Assembly (NCBI GenBank): GCA_028710605.1
Contig: JAQTTU010000009.1
Span: 62,001-126,000 of the forward strand
DNA from: Sideroxydans sp.
GTDB taxonomy: Bacteria; Pseudomonadota; Gammaproteobacteria; Burkholderiales; Gallionellaceae
Direction of reading: 5' to 3'
DNA length: 64,000 bases
Under the pieces are notes generated by a model. That model was not told the DNA's origin. It saw only the letters and a program-made list of their open reading frames with translations, and ran no database searches. How positions within the stretch are numbered: the first letter of the stretch is position 1; each line of letters begins with the position of its first letter. Shown here piece by piece: positions 17,022-28,695 of this stretch. A program made the position numbers and the translations under genes.

Positions 17022-17169
17022 GGCTGGCCTCTCTGAAGGCGGCGCATGATAGCAAATTCCCGTGGTTGCAAGGGTTTTCGGGGGCATCCGGCTTGATTGG
17101 GGTTGACCAAAATGCCGCCAGCCTTTATCTTGCGCGGTCTTAAATTAAAGCTAATTGGGTAGTTTTGTC

Positions 17170-18876
17170 ATGGAACTGACGGGCGCAGAAATAACCATCC
17201 GCTGTTTGCAGGAAGAAGGGGTCGAATACATATTCGGCTATCCCGGCGGCGCGGTGTTGTTCATTTACGACGAGTTATTCAAACAGGATAAGGTCAAGCA
17301 CGTGCTGGTGCGCCACGAGCAGGCCGCCGTGCATGCCGCCGACGGCTATGCGCGTTCCACCGACAAGGTCGGTGTGGCACTGGTCACTTCCGGCCCCGGC
17401 GTAACCAATGCCGTCACCGGTATCGCCACTGCGTATCTGGATTCCATTCCGCTGGTGGTCATCAGCGGCCAGGTGCCGACCAGTTTCATCGGCGAAGATG
17501 CTTTTCAAGAGGTCGATGCGGTCGGCATCACGCGTCCCTGCGTCAAGCACAACTTTTTGGTGAAAGATGCCAAGGACATCGCTAGCACGCTGAAGAAGGC
17601 ATTTTATCTGGCCAAGAGCGGTCGCCCCGGCCCGGTATTGGTGGACATTCCCAAAGACGTGTCGAACCAGAAGACGGAGTTCTCCTATCCCGAGACGGTG
17701 CATATCCGCTCCTACAACCCGCAAGTCCAAGGCGACATCGGGCAGATCAAGCGCGCGGCGCAGATGTTGCTGGAAGCCAAGCGTCCCATGGTGTATGCGG
17801 GCGGCGGCGTGGTGCTGTCGGATGCCTCCAAACAATTGACCGAACTGGTGCGCCTGCTGGGTTCGCCCTGCACCAACACGCTGATGGGGCTGGGCGGCTA
17901 TCCGGCCAGCGACAAACAGTTCGTCGGCATGCTCGGCATGCACGGCACTTATGAAGCCAATATGGGCATGCAGAACTGCGACGTGCTGCTGGCCGTGGGC
18001 GCGCGCTTCGACGATCGCGTGATCGGCAACGTGGCGCATTTCAATTCCGTGCCGCGCAAGATCATCCATATCGACATCGACCCGGCTTCCATCTCCAAGC
18101 GGGTGAAGGTGGATGTGTCCATTGTGGGCGACGTGGCGAATGTGCTGACGGATCTGCTGGCGGTGCTGAACAGCAGCAAGCAGAAGCCGGATGCGGCCGC
18201 GCTGAAAAACTGGTGGAAGCAAATCGACGAATGGCGCGGCAGCAATTCGCTGTCGTACAAGAATTCGAGCGAACTCATCAAGCCGCAATACGTGATCGAG
18301 ACGCTGCACAAGATCACTCAGGGCGATGCTTACGTGGTGTCCGATGTGGGGCAGCACCAGATGTGGGCGGCGCAGTATTACAAGTTCGACCAGCCGCGTC
18401 GCTGGATCAATTCCGGCGGTCTGGGCACGATGGGTTTCGGCTTGCCTGCGGCGATGGGCGTGCAACTGGCGCATCCGGGCGCGACCGTGGCCTGCGTGAC
18501 GGGCGAGGGCAGCATCCAGATGAACATCCAGGAGCTTTCGACCTGCAAGCAATACAACGTGCCGATCAAGATCATCGCGCTGAACAACCGTTATCTGGGC
18601 ATGGTGCGCCAGTGGCAGGAATTCTTCCACGGCAACCGCTACTCGCATTCTTACATGGATGCGTTGCCGGACTTCGTCAAGCTGGCCGAAGCCTACGGGC
18701 ACGTGGGCATTCTGGTGGAGAAACCTTCCGATGTGGAAGGCGCGCTGAAAGAGGCCTTCGCGCGCAAGGATGAACTGGTGTTTCTCGACTTCCGCACCGA
18801 TTCCACCGAGAACGTGTACCCCATGGTTCCCGGCGGCAAGGGCTTGTCCGAAGTGATTCTGGCGGAGGATTTGTAA
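17170..18876 (+). CDS. ilvB: Acetolactate synthase large subunit
   Basis: MELTGAEITIRCLQEEGVEYIFGYPGGAVL; TPP motif GEGSIQMNIQELSTCKQYNVPIKIIALNN; followed by ilvN, ilvC. Confidence 0.97.
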   Translation: MELTGAEITIRCLQEEGVEYIFGYPGGAVLFIYDELFKQDKVKHVLVRHEQAAVHAADGYARSTDKVGVALVTSGPGVTNAVTGIATAYLDSIPLVVISGQVPTSFIGEDAFQEVDAVGITRPCVKHNFLVKDAKDIASTLKKAFYLAKSGRPGPVLVDIPKDVSNQKTEFSYPETVHIRSYNPQVQGDIGQIKRAAQMLLEAKRPMVYAGGGVVLSDASKQLTELVRLLGSPCTNTLMGLGGYPASDKQFVGMLGMHGTYEANMGMQNCDVLLAVGARFDDRVIGNVAHFNSVPRKIIHIDIDPASISKRVKVDVSIVGDVANVLTDLLAVLNSSKQKPDAAALKNWWKQIDEWRGSNSLSYKNSSELIKPQYVIETLHKITQGDAYVVSDVGQHQMWAAQYYKFDQPRRWINSGGLGTMGFGLPAAMGVQLAHPGATVACVTGEGSIQMNIQELSTCKQYNVPIKIIALNNRYLGMVRQWQEFFHGNRYSHSYMDALPDFVKLAEAYGHVGILVEKPSDVEGALKEAFARKDELVFLDFRTDSTENVYPMVPGGKGLSEVILAEDL

Positions 18877-21918: not shown

Positions 21919-22452
21919 TCATCGCTGCCACAGCGTCTCTGCCTGTCCCGCCGCCCGATTCAACACGCGGCATAGCACGAACAATAAATCCGAAAGCCGA
22001 TTGAGATATTTCAGCCCCTCCGCCGGGGCTGTTTCTTTTTGTATGAGCTGAAAATAATCGCGTTCCGCGCGCCGTGCCACACTGCGCGCCACGTGGCATA
22101 GCGCCGCTGCGCGCGTACCGCCGGGCAGGATGAATTCCTTGAGCGGCGGCAGAGCGGCGTTGTAATGTTCAATGGCGCTATCAAGGCGAACGAGTTTTCC
22201 TGCGTCGAACGGTGCGCCCGGCGTGGCGAGTGCGCCGCCCAGATCGAACAGATCGTGCTGGATACGCAACAACTCATCGCGAACATTTTGCGGCAACGTC
22301 TCGGCGAGCAATACGCCGAGCTGGCTGTTCAGTTCATCCACGCTGCCGATAGCGCTGATGCGCGCGCTGTCCTTGGCGACGCGCGAACCGTCCGCCAACC
22401 CGGTGCTGCCATCGTCGCCGGTGCGTGTGGTGATTTTGCCGAGCCGCATCAT
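21919..22452 (-). CDS. Cob(I)yrinic acid a,c-diamide adenosyltransferase (PduO/MMAB type)
   Basis: KITTRTGDDGSTGLADGSRVAKDSARISAIGSVDELNSQLG; FILPGGTRAAALCHVARSVARRAER. Confidence 0.93.
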   Translation of the reverse strand: MMRLGKITTRTGDDGSTGLADGSRVAKDSARISAIGSVDELNSQLGVLLAETLPQNVRDELLRIQHDLFDLGGALATPGAPFDAGKLVRLDSAIEHYNAALPPLKEFILPGGTRAAALCHVARSVARRAERDYFQLIQKETAPAEGLKYLNRLSDLLFVLCRVLNRAAGQAETLWQR

Positions 22453-22871
22453 TGTTTTCCCAGACAAGCCAGATAAACCGCCGCATCCGGCGCGGTCTTG
22501 TTGCGCTGCGCCTGCCAGATCATTTCACCCAGACAATCCATCATCGCGTGCTGCGCCTCGTGTTCAGATTGGTATTTGTGCGTGAGCCGCGCGAATTGTT
22601 CGCGTATGCCCTGCGGTTGGCCGATGGAAATCTGCTCCTCGATGGTGAGGTGCATCATCAGGTGCAGAAAGGGATTGAGCACATTGCCGTCCGCCGCGTA
22701 ATCCTTGTCCCGATTGCGTTCCGGGTCGTTGAACAGTGCGTGAAATTCGGGGTGCTTGTCTATGAGTTGAGCGGTCAGGTCTTCCAGCGGCGCGAGCAAT
22801 TCCTTCGCGCAACGTTTACGCCAGGATTCAAACAGAAACAGCCTTGCTTCGTCGCGGGTCGGATTGAACAT
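22449..22871 (-). CDS. DUF1841 family protein
   Basis: MFNPTRDEARLFLFESWRKR...NPFLHLMMHLTIEEQISIGQPQGIR; ATGA overlap with the downstream gene. Confidence 0.85.
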   Translation of the reverse strand: MFNPTRDEARLFLFESWRKRCAKELLAPLEDLTAQLIDKHPEFHALFNDPERNRDKDYAADGNVLNPFLHLMMHLTIEEQISIGQPQGIREQFARLTHKYQSEHEAQHAMMDCLGEMIWQAQRNKTAPDAAVYLACLGKQ

Positions 22872-23092: not shown

Positions 23093-25126
23093 GTGAAAAC
23101 AATGAATAGCCGAATCTTGCGCAAAATTTCCTGTATTTTTTTTGGCATATTCTGGGTTGGCGCGGTTGGTGCACAGTCCAGCGAAGAAGAAAATCTGGCG
23201 CTGGTGTACGGCGACCAATTCACCACCAGCCTTGCCACCGGCAGCCGCCAGTCCGTCTCCAAAGCCCCCGCAGCAGCCACCGTTATCACTGCCCAGGACA
23301 TTCAGGCCATGGGCGCAACCGATCTGGATCAGGTGATGGAAAGCGTGCCCGGTGTGCATGTTTCCATGCAGCACGTCGCCATGAACCCGATCTACAGCTT
23401 TCGGGGCATTCACACCAAGGAAAATCCGCAAGTCCTGATGCTGGTGAACGGACTCCCGATCACCAATGTATTTGTGGGCGACCGCAGCCAGCTCTGGGGC
23501 GGTATGCCGCTGGAAAACGTGGAGCGCATCGAAGTGATACGCGGGCCGGGATCGGCGCTGTACGGAGCAGATGCCTTCTCCGGGGTCGTCAATATCATTA
23601 CCAAGACTTCGGCAAACATTCAGGGAACCGAAGCCGGTTTGCGCAAAGGCAGTTTTAATGCAACCGATGCGTGGGCGCAATACGGCGGTACGCTGGGAGA
23701 ACTGGACAGCGCTTTCTATCTGCGTGCCGGAAATACCGACGGCTCTCAAGCCAATATTCACGATGTCCTTGGCGCATCCGGCCCGCTCAGCACGTCGCGC
23801 AAGGCAATAGATGCGCGCGCCGATTTGTCCAAAGAAGCGTGGCGTTTGCGCGCGGGCTACCAGCAGCGCGAATTGGGTGTGGGTGCGGGGCTGGCCGGTG
23901 CGCTGGATGCCAATTCTCGCGGAAATGTGAAAAAATTTAATCTGGATATGAGTTACGACCAAACAAACTGGGCTCCGAATTGGGATGTGTCCGGGGTGGC
24001 CGGTTATTACAATATCAGGGAGCATGGCGAGCCGTACTACACTCTTTTTCCAGGAATGCTCGGCAACCCGGCTCATTCCGAGCAACACACTCACGCCAGT
24101 GCTTCCGCTTTCTATACCGGCTTTGACAAGCATCGGATACGCATAGGCTCTGGAGTCCAGGTGGATGACTTGTATTCGGTTCGGGAAAGCAAGAACTATA
24201 AGTTTGTGCTTGTGGCAGGTGTACCGACTCTGCAACCTATTGCGTGGCAGGATGTGAGCGGCACTTCTCTAGCCTATCTGCTGCCGCACAAACGCAACGT
24301 GATTTATGCCTACGCTCAGGATGAATGGAGCATTGCCAACGACTGGGCGCTGACCGCCGGCGTGCGGCACGACCGCTATTCCGACTTCGGCAGCACCACC
24401 AATCCGCGTCTGGCGCTGGTATGGGATGCCGCCTACAACGTCGTGGTCAAGGCCATGCATGGCACGGCTTTTCGCGCTCCAGCCTTCACCGAAATGTACA
24501 ACACCACCAACCCGGTTGGAACGGGCAATTCCAGCATCAAGCCGGAGACCATTACCACGGACGAACTTGCTTTCTCATGGCAGCAAACAAGCAAATTACG
24601 CAGCAACCTGAATCTTTTCCGTTACCACATGAGCAACATCATCATCCCCGATCTCACCCCAACGCATGTGTATCAGAATGAGGGCGACCAGACCGGGCGC
24701 GGGCTGGAATTGGAAGCAACTTACGATGCGACCAGCAATCTGCGATATTCCGGCAATTATTCCTTGCAGCATTCCATTGATAGTAAAACAGGAAAAGATG
24801 CGGGGTTGGCTCCGCGCAGGCACTTGTTTGCTCGAGTTGACTGGCGTTTTGCGCCGCAATGGCAATTCGGTACCACGCTCAACCATGTGGCAGACCGCAT
24901 GCGCGAGCCTAACGATACGCTTCACCCCAACAAGATTCCCGATTACACCACCGTGGATATGAATCTGCGGTGCGAAAATTTTGTCGAGGGATGGGATGCG
25001 CGCGTCATGATAACGAACCTGTTCAACCGCAACGCGCTGGAGCCGACATTCTTATCGTCGGGTATTACCTCCGATTTGCCGCTGCCCGGACGCGCTTTGT
25101 ATGTGCAGCTGCAGTACTGGCTTTAA
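23093..25126 (+). CDS. TonB-dependent outer membrane receptor
   Basis: Plug domain (AAATVITAQDIQAMGATDLDQVMESVPGVHV, RIEVIRGPGSALYGADAFSGVVNIITK), 22-strand-type barrel, C-terminal aromatic/Leu. Confidence 0.93.
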   Translation: MKTMNSRILRKISCIFFGIFWVGAVGAQSSEEENLALVYGDQFTTSLATGSRQSVSKAPAAATVITAQDIQAMGATDLDQVMESVPGVHVSMQHVAMNPIYSFRGIHTKENPQVLMLVNGLPITNVFVGDRSQLWGGMPLENVERIEVIRGPGSALYGADAFSGVVNIITKTSANIQGTEAGLRKGSFNATDAWAQYGGTLGELDSAFYLRAGNTDGSQANIHDVLGASGPLSTSRKAIDARADLSKEAWRLRAGYQQRELGVGAGLAGALDANSRGNVKKFNLDMSYDQTNWAPNWDVSGVAGYYNIREHGEPYYTLFPGMLGNPAHSEQHTHASASAFYTGFDKHRIRIGSGVQVDDLYSVRESKNYKFVLVAGVPTLQPIAWQDVSGTSLAYLLPHKRNVIYAYAQDEWSIANDWALTAGVRHDRYSDFGSTTNPRLALVWDAAYNVVVKAMHGTAFRAPAFTEMYNTTNPVGTGNSSIKPETITTDELAFSWQQTSKLRSNLNLFRYHMSNIIIPDLTPTHVYQNEGDQTGRGLELEATYDATSNLRYSGNYSLQHSIDSKTGKDAGLAPRRHLFARVDWRFAPQWQFGTTLNHVADRMREPNDTLHPNKIPDYTTVDMNLRCENFVEGWDARVMITNLFNRNALEPTFLSSGITSDLPLPGRALYVQLQYWL

Positions 25127-25142: not shown

Positions 25143-25949
25143 TCAACCCGCCGGATGCCAGCGCCGCTTGGCTGGCCCTTCGTACAGGATATGCGCGCAA
25201 GTCAACGGGAATAAACTTCCCTCCTCTCGTTGTTCCGCTTCGATATAGCAGGGCGGCATGCCAGCGAGGAATGCGGGAAACAGGTACAGGTAGTATTCCT
25301 GCGGCGTAAGCCCCAAATCTGCCGCCAGCGCGGCGGACAAACCGCCGTAATTCATGCGCTGCCGCCAGCGTCCACCGATCAATATCTCTTCGATTGAAAA
25401 CGCGAGCCGGACATACGCGCCGTCGGCCAAGCCGAGCTTCTCTGCCAACGCCATGGTCGGTTTGATGCGCTCGTCTGCGGCGGCGATGGGGCGACCGTAA
25501 CCGGCGATGCTGCGCTTCTGCTTGAGTTCTGTCGCCACCAGTTCGGCCAGATTGCCGCCGTCCTCCACCTGTTTTTTTGCGCGGATAAAAAATTCGATGG
25601 CGCGAATATCGATGCCGCGTCCGTAGATGGTTGCTTCGGACACCGCCAGCGCGGCGGCGATGCCCAGGTTGCCGGTGCTGCGCGCCGTGCCGGCCAGCGC
25701 CGCCACGCGGTTGTTCCAGATGCGCGCATCGGGGTAGCTGGTGTGCGCCCAGATAGCCTGCATCAGCCGCAATTGCTCAGGCGAAAAACGGCGACCGGTA
25801 ATGCCGAATACATACAACTCAACCCATTCCATATCCTTCAGATCGGCGTGCAAATCGTGTCCCCGGAACACCGCCCGACTGCCGACAAAGCACGCGCCCA
25901 TCTGCGTCTTCAAATGCCCCACGTGTTCCAGCAGTGTCTGCGGATTCAT
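25143..25949 (-). CDS. Citrate synthase-superfamily protein (citryl-CoA lyase-like), apparently catalytically degenerate
   Basis: CS-like segments ARIWNNRVAALAGTARSTGNLGIAAALAVSEATIYGRGID and AGYGRPIAAADERI (compare GFGHxVYxxxDPRA); overlaps neighbour by ATGA. Confidence 0.7.
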   Translation of the reverse strand: MNPQTLLEHVGHLKTQMGACFVGSRAVFRGHDLHADLKDMEWVELYVFGITGRRFSPEQLRLMQAIWAHTSYPDARIWNNRVAALAGTARSTGNLGIAAALAVSEATIYGRGIDIRAIEFFIRAKKQVEDGGNLAELVATELKQKRSIAGYGRPIAAADERIKPTMALAEKLGLADGAYVRLAFSIEEILIGGRWRQRMNYGGLSAALAADLGLTPQEYYLYLFPAFLAGMPPCYIEAEQREEGSLFPLTCAHILYEGPAKRRWHPAG

Positions 25950-26737
25950 GCTTGGTCTCCTATCTTGTCGTGTTGCAGTTCGATGGTGAAGAACGGGAAT
26001 TTCTTGTGCCCGAGTTGGCGTTGTTCCAGCGCGTGCGCGGCGGCTCCCGGCAGGCGCAGCAAGAGGTGGAGCATTTCCCCTTGTTCCGGGGTGAAGCCCA
26101 AATCGGCAAGCGCGGCGGCGGCGACGGCGGACAGCGCCAGCGGCAGGCCGCTTATTGCCTCCAGTTCGGCGCGCTGCTGTTCCAGCCAGGCCAGACGTGC
26201 GCTCGAATTCAGGCTGACAAAACATGCGAGCGCCTGCTTGACCGGAGTTGCCGTGCTCACACCGTGCGGATCGAAGCCCGGCGGGTGTTGCGGCGCAGGC
26301 CAGATGGAAACTTCATCTGGCGCTGGCGCAGTCAGCCACTGCCGCCACGCGTCGAGGTTAGTGCCGCAAACCTCCCATGCCTGCATCACCAGAAATACTT
26401 CGCGTCCGCCTGCGTTCTGGCCTGCGCCCACCGCCAACGCCGCGATCAGGCTGGCGGCGGAAGTGGAGCCGCCCACGCCGCCGCACATCGCGGCATGCAC
26501 CGCCGCATCGCGCGGGCCGGGGTTGGCCAAGGCGACGGCCAGCGCTTCCAGCAAATCGGCTTCGGCCTTGCTCAGCGCCTCATCGCGGAACAGCAGGGCG
26601 AGCATTTCCACCCAGCGGATTTGTCCCAGCAATTCGCCATATACGTCGTAGCCCCGGCAGTAGGCGGCGCGCGCGGCGAAAGGATTGTCGGCTTCCGGCT
26701 CTTCCTGCCAGATGCGGGTATGGATGCCCATGGTCAT
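25946..26737 (-). CDS. Second citrate synthase-superfamily protein, divergent
   Basis: CS-like arrangement HAAMCGGVGGSTSAASLIAALAVGAGQNAGGREVFLVMQ and LADLGFTPEQGEMLHLLLRLPGAAAHALEQ; ATGA overlaps both sides. Confidence 0.6.
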   Translation of the reverse strand: MTMGIHTRIWQEEPEADNPFAARAAYCRGYDVYGELLGQIRWVEMLALLFRDEALSKAEADLLEALAVALANPGPRDAAVHAAMCGGVGGSTSAASLIAALAVGAGQNAGGREVFLVMQAWEVCGTNLDAWRQWLTAPAPDEVSIWPAPQHPPGFDPHGVSTATPVKQALACFVSLNSSARLAWLEQQRAELEAISGLPLALSAVAAAALADLGFTPEQGEMLHLLLRLPGAAAHALEQRQLGHKKFPFFTIELQHDKIGDQA

Positions 26738-28542
26738 CGCAGTGCTCCCAGAGATTTCATGCGCACGCCGATGGGCGGCACTTCTTCCGCGTCAACGCGG
26801 ATGTCGAGCAAGGTCGGCCCTTTGCGGCGCAGCATCGCATCGAAATCGAGCTTGTCCAACTCTTGCGGCGAACGGATCACGTGCGCGGGAATATTCATCG
26901 CTTCGGCAAGTTTGCCGTAATCGACGGGCGAAATTTCGCAGCCTATGGATTCGGCCTTGGCGATGCGCTGCCCGTGCCTGACCATGCCCAAGGCGCTGTC
27001 GTTGAGTACCACAAACACCACCGTAAGCTGCTCCATCACCGCCACGGTGATCTCCTGCCCGCTCATCAGGTAAGCGCCGTCGCCCGTGATGCACACCACC
27101 GGATCTTTCGGGTTACCGCGCGCCGTGCCGATTGCCGCGCCTATGGACCAACCCATAGGGCAAAAATCCATCAGCACGCGCAGCCAACTGGCCAGCCCCG
27201 AGCGCTGTTCCGGCTTTTGCACATCGGCATTCTGCTGTCCCCGATTGAGCCGCCGGTTGCGCGGCTGGAGATAATGCACCGTCCACACCATGCTGTTGCC
27301 GATGTCGGCGAGAAAGCGCGTGGTGGGCGGGCAGCGCTCGGACAGGGTTTTCATCAGGCGCTGCGGTTTGATCGGCGCGACTTCGGAATGGTAACTATCG
27401 GGCGAATCGAACATGACTCCGGCCTGATAGCTGTCCGCGCGTTGGATGTTGGGTCGGTAAGCATCGGCTTTCAACAGTTCGATCAGATGGTCGCAGGTCG
27501 AGCGGATATGGCCGCGCACATGCAGCTTGGCCATGGGCGAACGCATCAGGTTGTCCTCCGAATTGTCGATGTGCACCAAGCGGTTGTTGAGCAGGGAATC
27601 GCACCAGCCGCGACTGATGAGTTCGCTGAATCCTGTGCCGAATGCCAGTACGATGTCCGGCGCGCTGGCTAAAAGTTCGGTGGCACTGAGATGCCCGCCG
27701 AAACCGAAAACGCCGCAATACGCCGGATGCAGCGGATTGATAAAGCCTTTTGCATCGGGCGTGGTGACGAACAATGCGCGGGTCAGCTCGGCCAGTTCCA
27801 TGATCGCCTCGATGGCATCGCCGCACGCCGCGCCGATCAGGAACACCACGCGCGGGCTATGCTCTAGCTCGTCCTTGAGACGGAGTACCGCATGCTCGTC
27901 AATCAGCACGGGCTCGTGTTTGAACAAGGCGGCCAGATCGTAGGCGGGAGTCACGCTTGGCACAGCGCCGCGCAAAATATCCAGCGGAATCGCCAGATGC
28001 ACCGCGCCGCCGGGAGCCTGGTGCGCCGTCATCAGCGCGTTGGCCAGCTTGCGCTCGAACTGGCTGGGATGGGACACCATGGCGTTGTAGCGGGTGCAGT
28101 GTTGAAACATGGCAAAGGCGTTGACCCCGGTGCTGGAGGATTCCTGCAATGCGCCCTTGCCGAAGGAAGACAGCACCGGCAAACCGCTGATCGCCAGCAG
28201 CGGAATGTTGTTGTCGTGGGCGCAGGCCACGCCGGTGAGCATATTGGTCGAGCCGGGGCCGGAAGTGGCGCAGCACACGCCCAAGCGCCCGGTCTCGCGC
28301 GCATAACCGTCGGCCATGAAGGCCGCCCCCGCTTCATGCCGCGCCACGATTGGCCGCAAACCGCCGCGCCGCTGGCTGCGCGCCATCGCGTTGTACAACG
28401 GTTCGATCGCGCCGCCCGGCACGCCGAACACATACTCAACACCGATTTGTTCCAGATAAGCCACCAGCAAATCCGCTACTTCCAGCGTGTGCGGCGGCAC
28501 GGTTTTGTGATGTTTATGGGCAAGCGAAATTTCAGCATCCAT
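26734..28542 (-). CDS. Thiamine-pyrophosphate-dependent enzyme, acetolactate-synthase-like
   Basis: ARHEAGAAFMADGYARETGRLGVCCATSGPGSTNMLTG; TPP motif GDGAYLMSGQEITVAVMEQLTVVFVVLND. Confidence 0.9.
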   Translation of the reverse strand: MDAEISLAHKHHKTVPPHTLEVADLLVAYLEQIGVEYVFGVPGGAIEPLYNAMARSQRRGGLRPIVARHEAGAAFMADGYARETGRLGVCCATSGPGSTNMLTGVACAHDNNIPLLAISGLPVLSSFGKGALQESSSTGVNAFAMFQHCTRYNAMVSHPSQFERKLANALMTAHQAPGGAVHLAIPLDILRGAVPSVTPAYDLAALFKHEPVLIDEHAVLRLKDELEHSPRVVFLIGAACGDAIEAIMELAELTRALFVTTPDAKGFINPLHPAYCGVFGFGGHLSATELLASAPDIVLAFGTGFSELISRGWCDSLLNNRLVHIDNSEDNLMRSPMAKLHVRGHIRSTCDHLIELLKADAYRPNIQRADSYQAGVMFDSPDSYHSEVAPIKPQRLMKTLSERCPPTTRFLADIGNSMVWTVHYLQPRNRRLNRGQQNADVQKPEQRSGLASWLRVLMDFCPMGWSIGAAIGTARGNPKDPVVCITGDGAYLMSGQEITVAVMEQLTVVFVVLNDSALGMVRHGQRIAKAESIGCEISPVDYGKLAEAMNIPAHVIRSPQELDKLDFDAMLRRKGPTLLDIRVDAEEVPPIGVRMKSLGALR

Positions 28543-28695
28543 GTCAGAACTCCTCCTGAAGAAGTTTAAGAACTCATTGTTGTTAGCCTGTGATGAAAAC
28601 CGGCTGGACGGTCTGGAGCCGCTTAATCTTGCTGTGAATCATGCTACCGCAATTTTGCAATAAACCTCAAATGAAAAGTGGGTACTATGATGCCG

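Follow-up and report, generated by a model that had tools for sequence, protein, structure and literature searches.

Compact proteins with a citrate synthase-like fold are known from Hydrogenobacter citryl-CoA lyase (PDB 6hxp) and from the citrate synthase-homology module of ATP-citrate lyase. ThDP-dependent enzymes of the acetolactate synthase type include AHAS/ALS as well as BbmA/CsmA (PDB 8x3x and 8x3z), and no function for BbmA/CsmA was found in the open-access literature. Self-made ligands that are used together with a TonB receptor and signalling are known from siderophore systems (pyoverdine-FpvA) and from methanobactin, and LuxP-LuxQ is an example of sensing by a periplasmic binding protein and a kinase. 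Here, we analysed a three-gene operon that joins a ThDP-dependent enzyme to two proteins with the citryl-CoA lyase fold, within a 64,000-nt stretch of DNA from Sideroxydans sp. (family Gallionellaceae), referred to as the window. The original prediction had taken this trio for a possibly new pathway, and no description of an orthologous operon was found in the open-access literature. The operon spans Beta- and Gammaproteobacteria and Geobacter relatives and has no assigned product in the open literature that we searched.

Gene layout and the ThDP-dependent enzyme

The three genes lie on the minus strand. The first (26734-28542) encodes a ThDP-dependent enzyme of the acetolactate synthase superfamily with 602 residues, and is followed by the genes for two citryl-CoA-lyase-fold proteins, CS1 (25946-26737, 263 residues) and CS2 (25143-25949, 268 residues). 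Neighbouring genes share ATGA overlaps, one between the ThDP gene and CS1 (26734-26737) and one between CS1 and CS2 (25946-25949). The coordinates, strand and both overlaps are as originally predicted. The long open reading frame listed mechanically at 25143-26225 is spurious: the start codon of CS2 is the ATG that ends at 25949, and it is preceded by AGGAGA. Coupled expression had been predicted for all three genes. It is well supported for CS1 and CS2, for which a 4-nt overlap is seen in 18 of 24 loci from the window's family and an 8-nt overlap in three more. The case for the whole trio is weaker because the 4-nt overlap between the ThDP gene and CS1 recurs in only 7 of the 24 loci, with an SDR gene often intervening. 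The only RNA element found in the window was a tRNA. A TTCACAGCAAG-like word lies upstream of the ThDP gene (window ~28630-28650) and recurs in up to 8 of 65 relatives.

The ThDP enzyme carries all three TPP domains (Pfam TPP_enzyme_N/M/C), with a ThDP glutamate (E70) and a GDG...N motif that do not vary among 20 relatives. The 26734-28542 product thus has the domains, the catalytic Glu and the motif that mark the ThDP superfamily, and from its sequence it appears to be an intact-looking member of the acetolactate synthase superfamily. The best PDB relatives are BbmA/CsmA (8x3x and 8x3z), followed by AHAS/ALS. The enzyme scores far under every NCBIfam ALS cut-off, and its assignment as an acetolactate/acetohydroxyacid synthase equivalog was rejected, at 264.8 bits against a cut-off of 538 for TIGR00118. 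It is also distinct from the ilvB-like gene at 17155-18876, as had been proposed, with 1053 vs 260 bits on the family profile.

Fold, residue loss and co-inheritance of CS1 and CS2

Plain sequence matches of CS1 and CS2 to citryl-CoA lyase are distant, with a weak match to PRK06224. As a genome-wide probe, PRK06224 mostly retrieves ordinary citrate synthases and is therefore unfit as a membership test. A profile search against 6hxp gave E values of 2.4e-10 for CS1 and 3e-9 for CS2. AlphaFold models reached pLDDT values of 85.9 (CS1) and 84.6 (CS2), dropping to about 55-80 around the segment with the HGGA site, and a Foldseek search with these models again gave 6hxp as the best match (E = 1.8e-8 for CS1 and 7.2e-9 for CS2, ~20% identity). 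Both proteins therefore share the compact citrate synthase/citryl-CoA lyase fold that had been read from their sequences.

We aligned types I and II of CS1 and CS2 to 6hxp and to intact citrate synthases. The labels His274, His320, Asp375, Arg329 and Arg401 follow pig citrate synthase numbering. Equivalents of His320 and Asp375 are missing from all aligned CS1 and CS2 proteins of both types. The His274 (HGGA) equivalent is kept only in type II of CS1, the divergent CS1 type; type I has Leu, Ser, Tyr, Phe, Asn or Val at this position in CS1 and Tyr in CS2. The His320 (GxGH) column holds Arg in CS2 and Pro or Ser in CS1, where the loop is remodelled and the column is less sure; near this loop, a His (H151) of CS1 is nearly invariant. 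At the Asp375 column, type I proteins have mostly Ser, Thr or Ala in CS1 and Ala, Gly or Val in CS2, and type II proteins have Pro, Val or Thr in CS1 and Asn or Gly in CS2. In the window itself, His274 is replaced by Tyr, His320 by Arg and Asp375 by Ala/Gly in CS2, and CS1 is without equivalents of all three. The loss of the canonical catalytic residues that had been noticed by eye is thus real and fixed across relatives, and the alignment showed no intact His/Asp set in either protein. The motifs behind that observation had been read correctly but were assigned to the wrong genes: YGRGI and GYGRPI are found in CS2, the third gene, and QNAGGR in CS1, the second.

Other positions are kept. Of the two carboxylate-binding arginines, the Arg401 equivalent is found in type I CS1 only, where R228 is retained in the window and nearly invariant, and the Arg329 equivalent (R161 in the window) is confined to CS2 and invariant there. 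Further invariant residues are P75-R76 and W146-P147 in CS1, and D74, R76, WNNR, GxGRP, DER, R262 and W264 in CS2. Values of dN/dS for CS1 and CS2 fall at 0.13-0.17; between the window and its close relative L036 they are 0.148 for CS1, 0.159 for CS2 and 0.097 for the ThDP enzyme. By these substitution patterns, CS1 and CS2 are under purifying selection and strongly constrained. The possibility that they are pseudogenes was ruled out by dN/dS and the invariant positions, and the new invariant residues show that both are kept for another purpose.

In a tree with canonical relatives, CS1 forms one clade and CS2 another, each with type I and type II branches, and the two clades are sisters, although the root is uncertain given the long branches to the outgroup. 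The ALS (ThDP enzyme) of locus L061 is 92% identical to that of L046, while their CS1 and CS2 proteins are only 37% and 29% identical. The type II pair of L061 is instead 93% (CS1) and 89% (CS2) identical to that of L051. These identities indicate that the CS pair is exchanged as one cassette between ALS backgrounds. The pair can also be lost: in three family genomes the ALS adjoins the receptor gene described below, with the CS pair gone from two of them and only a CS2 remnant left in the third. Because the pair is swapped together and lost together, an obligate partnership of CS1 and CS2 is likely, and we infer that the two form a physical complex.

Cassette exchange of this kind involves L061, L046, L051, L052 and L053, where a type II CS1-CS2 pair stands in place of the type I pair while the adjoining ThDP enzymes are almost the same. 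Duplicated sets were observed as well, with two ALS-CS1-CS2 units at one locus, an extra CS pair or extra CS2 at another, and two ALS genes at a third.

Receptor, binding protein and sensor genes

We searched GTDB representative genomes once with a CS2 profile, which gave 333 relatives, and kept 79 loci; context was counted in 47 loci flanked by 6 kb each way. ALS and CS1 accompany CS2 in 47/47, and the three genes are kept together in numerous genomes. The original prediction had missed a near-constant link to a TonB-dependent outer-membrane receptor (TBDR, 45 loci), a periplasmic binding protein (SBP, 40 loci) and a kinase or c-di-GMP sensor (41 loci), with all six genes present in 40 loci. 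An SDR gene occurs in 21 of the 47. The commonest gene order is ALS-(SDR)-CS1-CS2-TBDR-SBP-sensor. Geobacter-type loci and a few others have neither SBP nor sensor nearby. Type II pairs also adjoin a TBDR in other families of the class; one such locus has genes for a YfiR-like protein and a GGDEF-EAL protein close by.

The TBDR of the window (23093-25126, plus strand, 677 residues) has Pfam Plug and TonB_dep_Rec barrel domains and lies tail to tail with the trio; in most relatives it is co-directional and downstream. Its nearest solved relatives are of the Cir/BtuB/FepA types, and the nearest receptor families are siderophore, haem and B12 receptors. A hydrophobic N-terminus is present in the receptor and absent from the trio enzymes. 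The SBP is a periplasmic ABC_sub_bind protein (PF04392) whose closest solved relatives are uncharacterised. The sensor has a HAMP domain and a weak sCache_4 match; after these come GGDEF-EAL, kinase-REC-Hpt-REC-GGDEF-EAL or kinase-REC. Across the loci, we found no further conserved operon gene (such as a permease, ATPase or exporter) and no conserved inner-membrane transporter, and the regions ahead of ALS, TBDR and SBP were not enriched in Fur boxes.

Two other neighbours were seen. In L106, L131 and about 10 other loci, mostly of Rhodocyclales, a divergent gene located a few kb upstream of the operon looks by eye like aconitase B; this is probably a matter of local synteny. In the window, a gene at 21919-22467, near the TBDR, reads like a cobalamin adenosyltransferase and is shared only with L036.

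Within Gallionellaceae, CS1 is present in 24 of 120 genomes. With weak hits excluded, the SBP occurs in 23/24 genomes with the trio vs 10/96 of the others (Fisher p = 7e-16, uncorrected for phylogeny). Among the ten SBP-positive genomes without the trio, five have neither ALS nor CS genes and five still have an ALS. Several carry TBDR-SBP-sensor modules, and some of the loci are at contig ends, so that assembly gaps may explain part of the pattern. Modules of this kind, lacking synthase genes, would be expected if some cells do no more than listen or scavenge. In the window's genome, the SBP and sensor are found away from the trio, in two further TBDR-SBP-sensor modules without synthase genes that lie on other contigs and have receptors of their own. 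A full-length citrate-synthase-type gene also sits elsewhere in this genome.

Possible roles of the trio and comparison with known systems

Synthase, receptor, binding-protein and sensor genes are linked and co-occur, the genetic pattern expected if a self-made ligand is sensed. The near-constant presence of a TBDR, an SBP and a kinase or c-di-GMP sensor points to the making and sensing of a ligand and not to a purely metabolic pathway. The enzymes are without an export signal, a receptor, SBP and sensor are present, and no conserved permease was found; read most simply, the enzymes would make a ligand that is then detected from outside. Our leading explanation, to which we give a probability of roughly 0.45, is a make-and-sense system for a small ligand, in which the trio supplies the biosynthetic half and CS1-CS2 act as a non-canonical, acyl-CoA-type partner to the ThDP enzyme. 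The ThDP enzyme would decarboxylate or ligate a 2-oxo acid. The CS1-CS2 heteromer may bind an acyl-CoA or carboxylate partner, its non-canonical residues setting the second substrate; this role is suggested by the fold, the retained Arg residues and the cassette exchange. Where present, the SDR could reduce the product, which would leave the cell, perhaps as a metal chelate. The receptor would then bring it into the periplasm, where the SBP would bind it and report to the membrane sensor, shifting a c-di-GMP or phosphorelay output. The ALS may also act alone, since three family genomes keep it beside the receptor without an intact CS pair. Against a make-and-sense system stand the window's own SBP and sensor, which are on other contigs, and the Geobacter-type loci without an SBP or sensor nearby.

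The same genes could serve uptake and catabolism, in which the receptor imports an external compound (e.g., a xenosiderophore or a carboxylate), the SBP and sensor signal its presence, and the trio cleaves and degrades it. Enzymes beside TonB receptors are often catabolic, the closest CS-fold relatives are lyases, and receptor modules exist without the trio. However, the lyase His/Asp residues are gone, and with no conserved inner-membrane transporter and no export signal on the enzymes, a periplasmic ligand would have no evident route to them. A transporter could lie elsewhere in the genome, which makes the catabolic direction possible, but overall we consider it unlikely. We hold it quite unlikely that the trio makes a nutritional metal chelator which the receptor takes up, with sensing secondary. 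TonB receptors usually carry metal chelates or cobalamin, which fits the siderophore, haem and B12 receptors nearest to the TBDR, and the synthase-less modules look like siderophore piracy; yet Fur boxes are not enriched upstream of ALS, TBDR and SBP, no transport ATPase or permease is conserved, and sensor genes are as constant as the SBP. An ordinary, active role of CS1 and CS2 as citryl-CoA lyases or TCA-type citrate synthases is already disfavoured and highly improbable: the shared fold and the weak PRK06224 match are set against the absence of His320 and Asp375 equivalents from every aligned protein of both types, and against the full-length citrate-synthase-type gene elsewhere in the genome.

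A make-and-sense system could be taken further, to a novel signalling class in which the ThDP enzyme and a repurposed CS-fold heteromer would make a diffusible signal read through the TBDR, SBP and c-di-GMP sensor, with exchangeable CS cassettes as signal variants and receptor-only genomes as eavesdroppers; we regard this as rather doubtful. If a self-made ligand is indeed produced and sensed, the product would be a new small molecule, the citrate synthase fold would have found a new use that does not depend on its textbook residues, and iron oxidisers, methanotrophs and denitrifiers would have a TonB-gated route by which c-di-GMP or a phosphorelay is controlled. Few genes are involved and cultured genera carry them, so that the system can be tested.

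In comparison with described proteins, CS1 and CS2 resemble Hydrogenobacter citryl-CoA lyase and the ATP-citrate lyase module in fold, length (~260 aa) and distant sequence similarity. Unlike these, they are two diverged, paired paralogues instead of one protein, are without His320 and Asp375 equivalents, and have the genes for a ThDP enzyme and a TonB receptor as neighbours. The trio's ThDP enzyme has its ThDP domains, catalytic Glu and GDG motif in common with BbmA/CsmA and AHAS/ALS, and a FGKGALQES-like segment with BbmA, but it lies far below the curated ALS cut-offs and has other partner proteins and another context. As a whole, the locus is like pyoverdine-FpvA, methanobactin and LuxP-LuxQ-type systems in that biosynthesis, outer-membrane receptor, periplasmic binding protein and regulator are encoded together. 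It differs from them in that no NRPS, peptide precursor or sigma/anti-sigma pair was noted, a GGDEF/EAL protein or hybrid kinase serves as sensor, and the enzymes are a ThDP enzyme and a degenerate CS pair.
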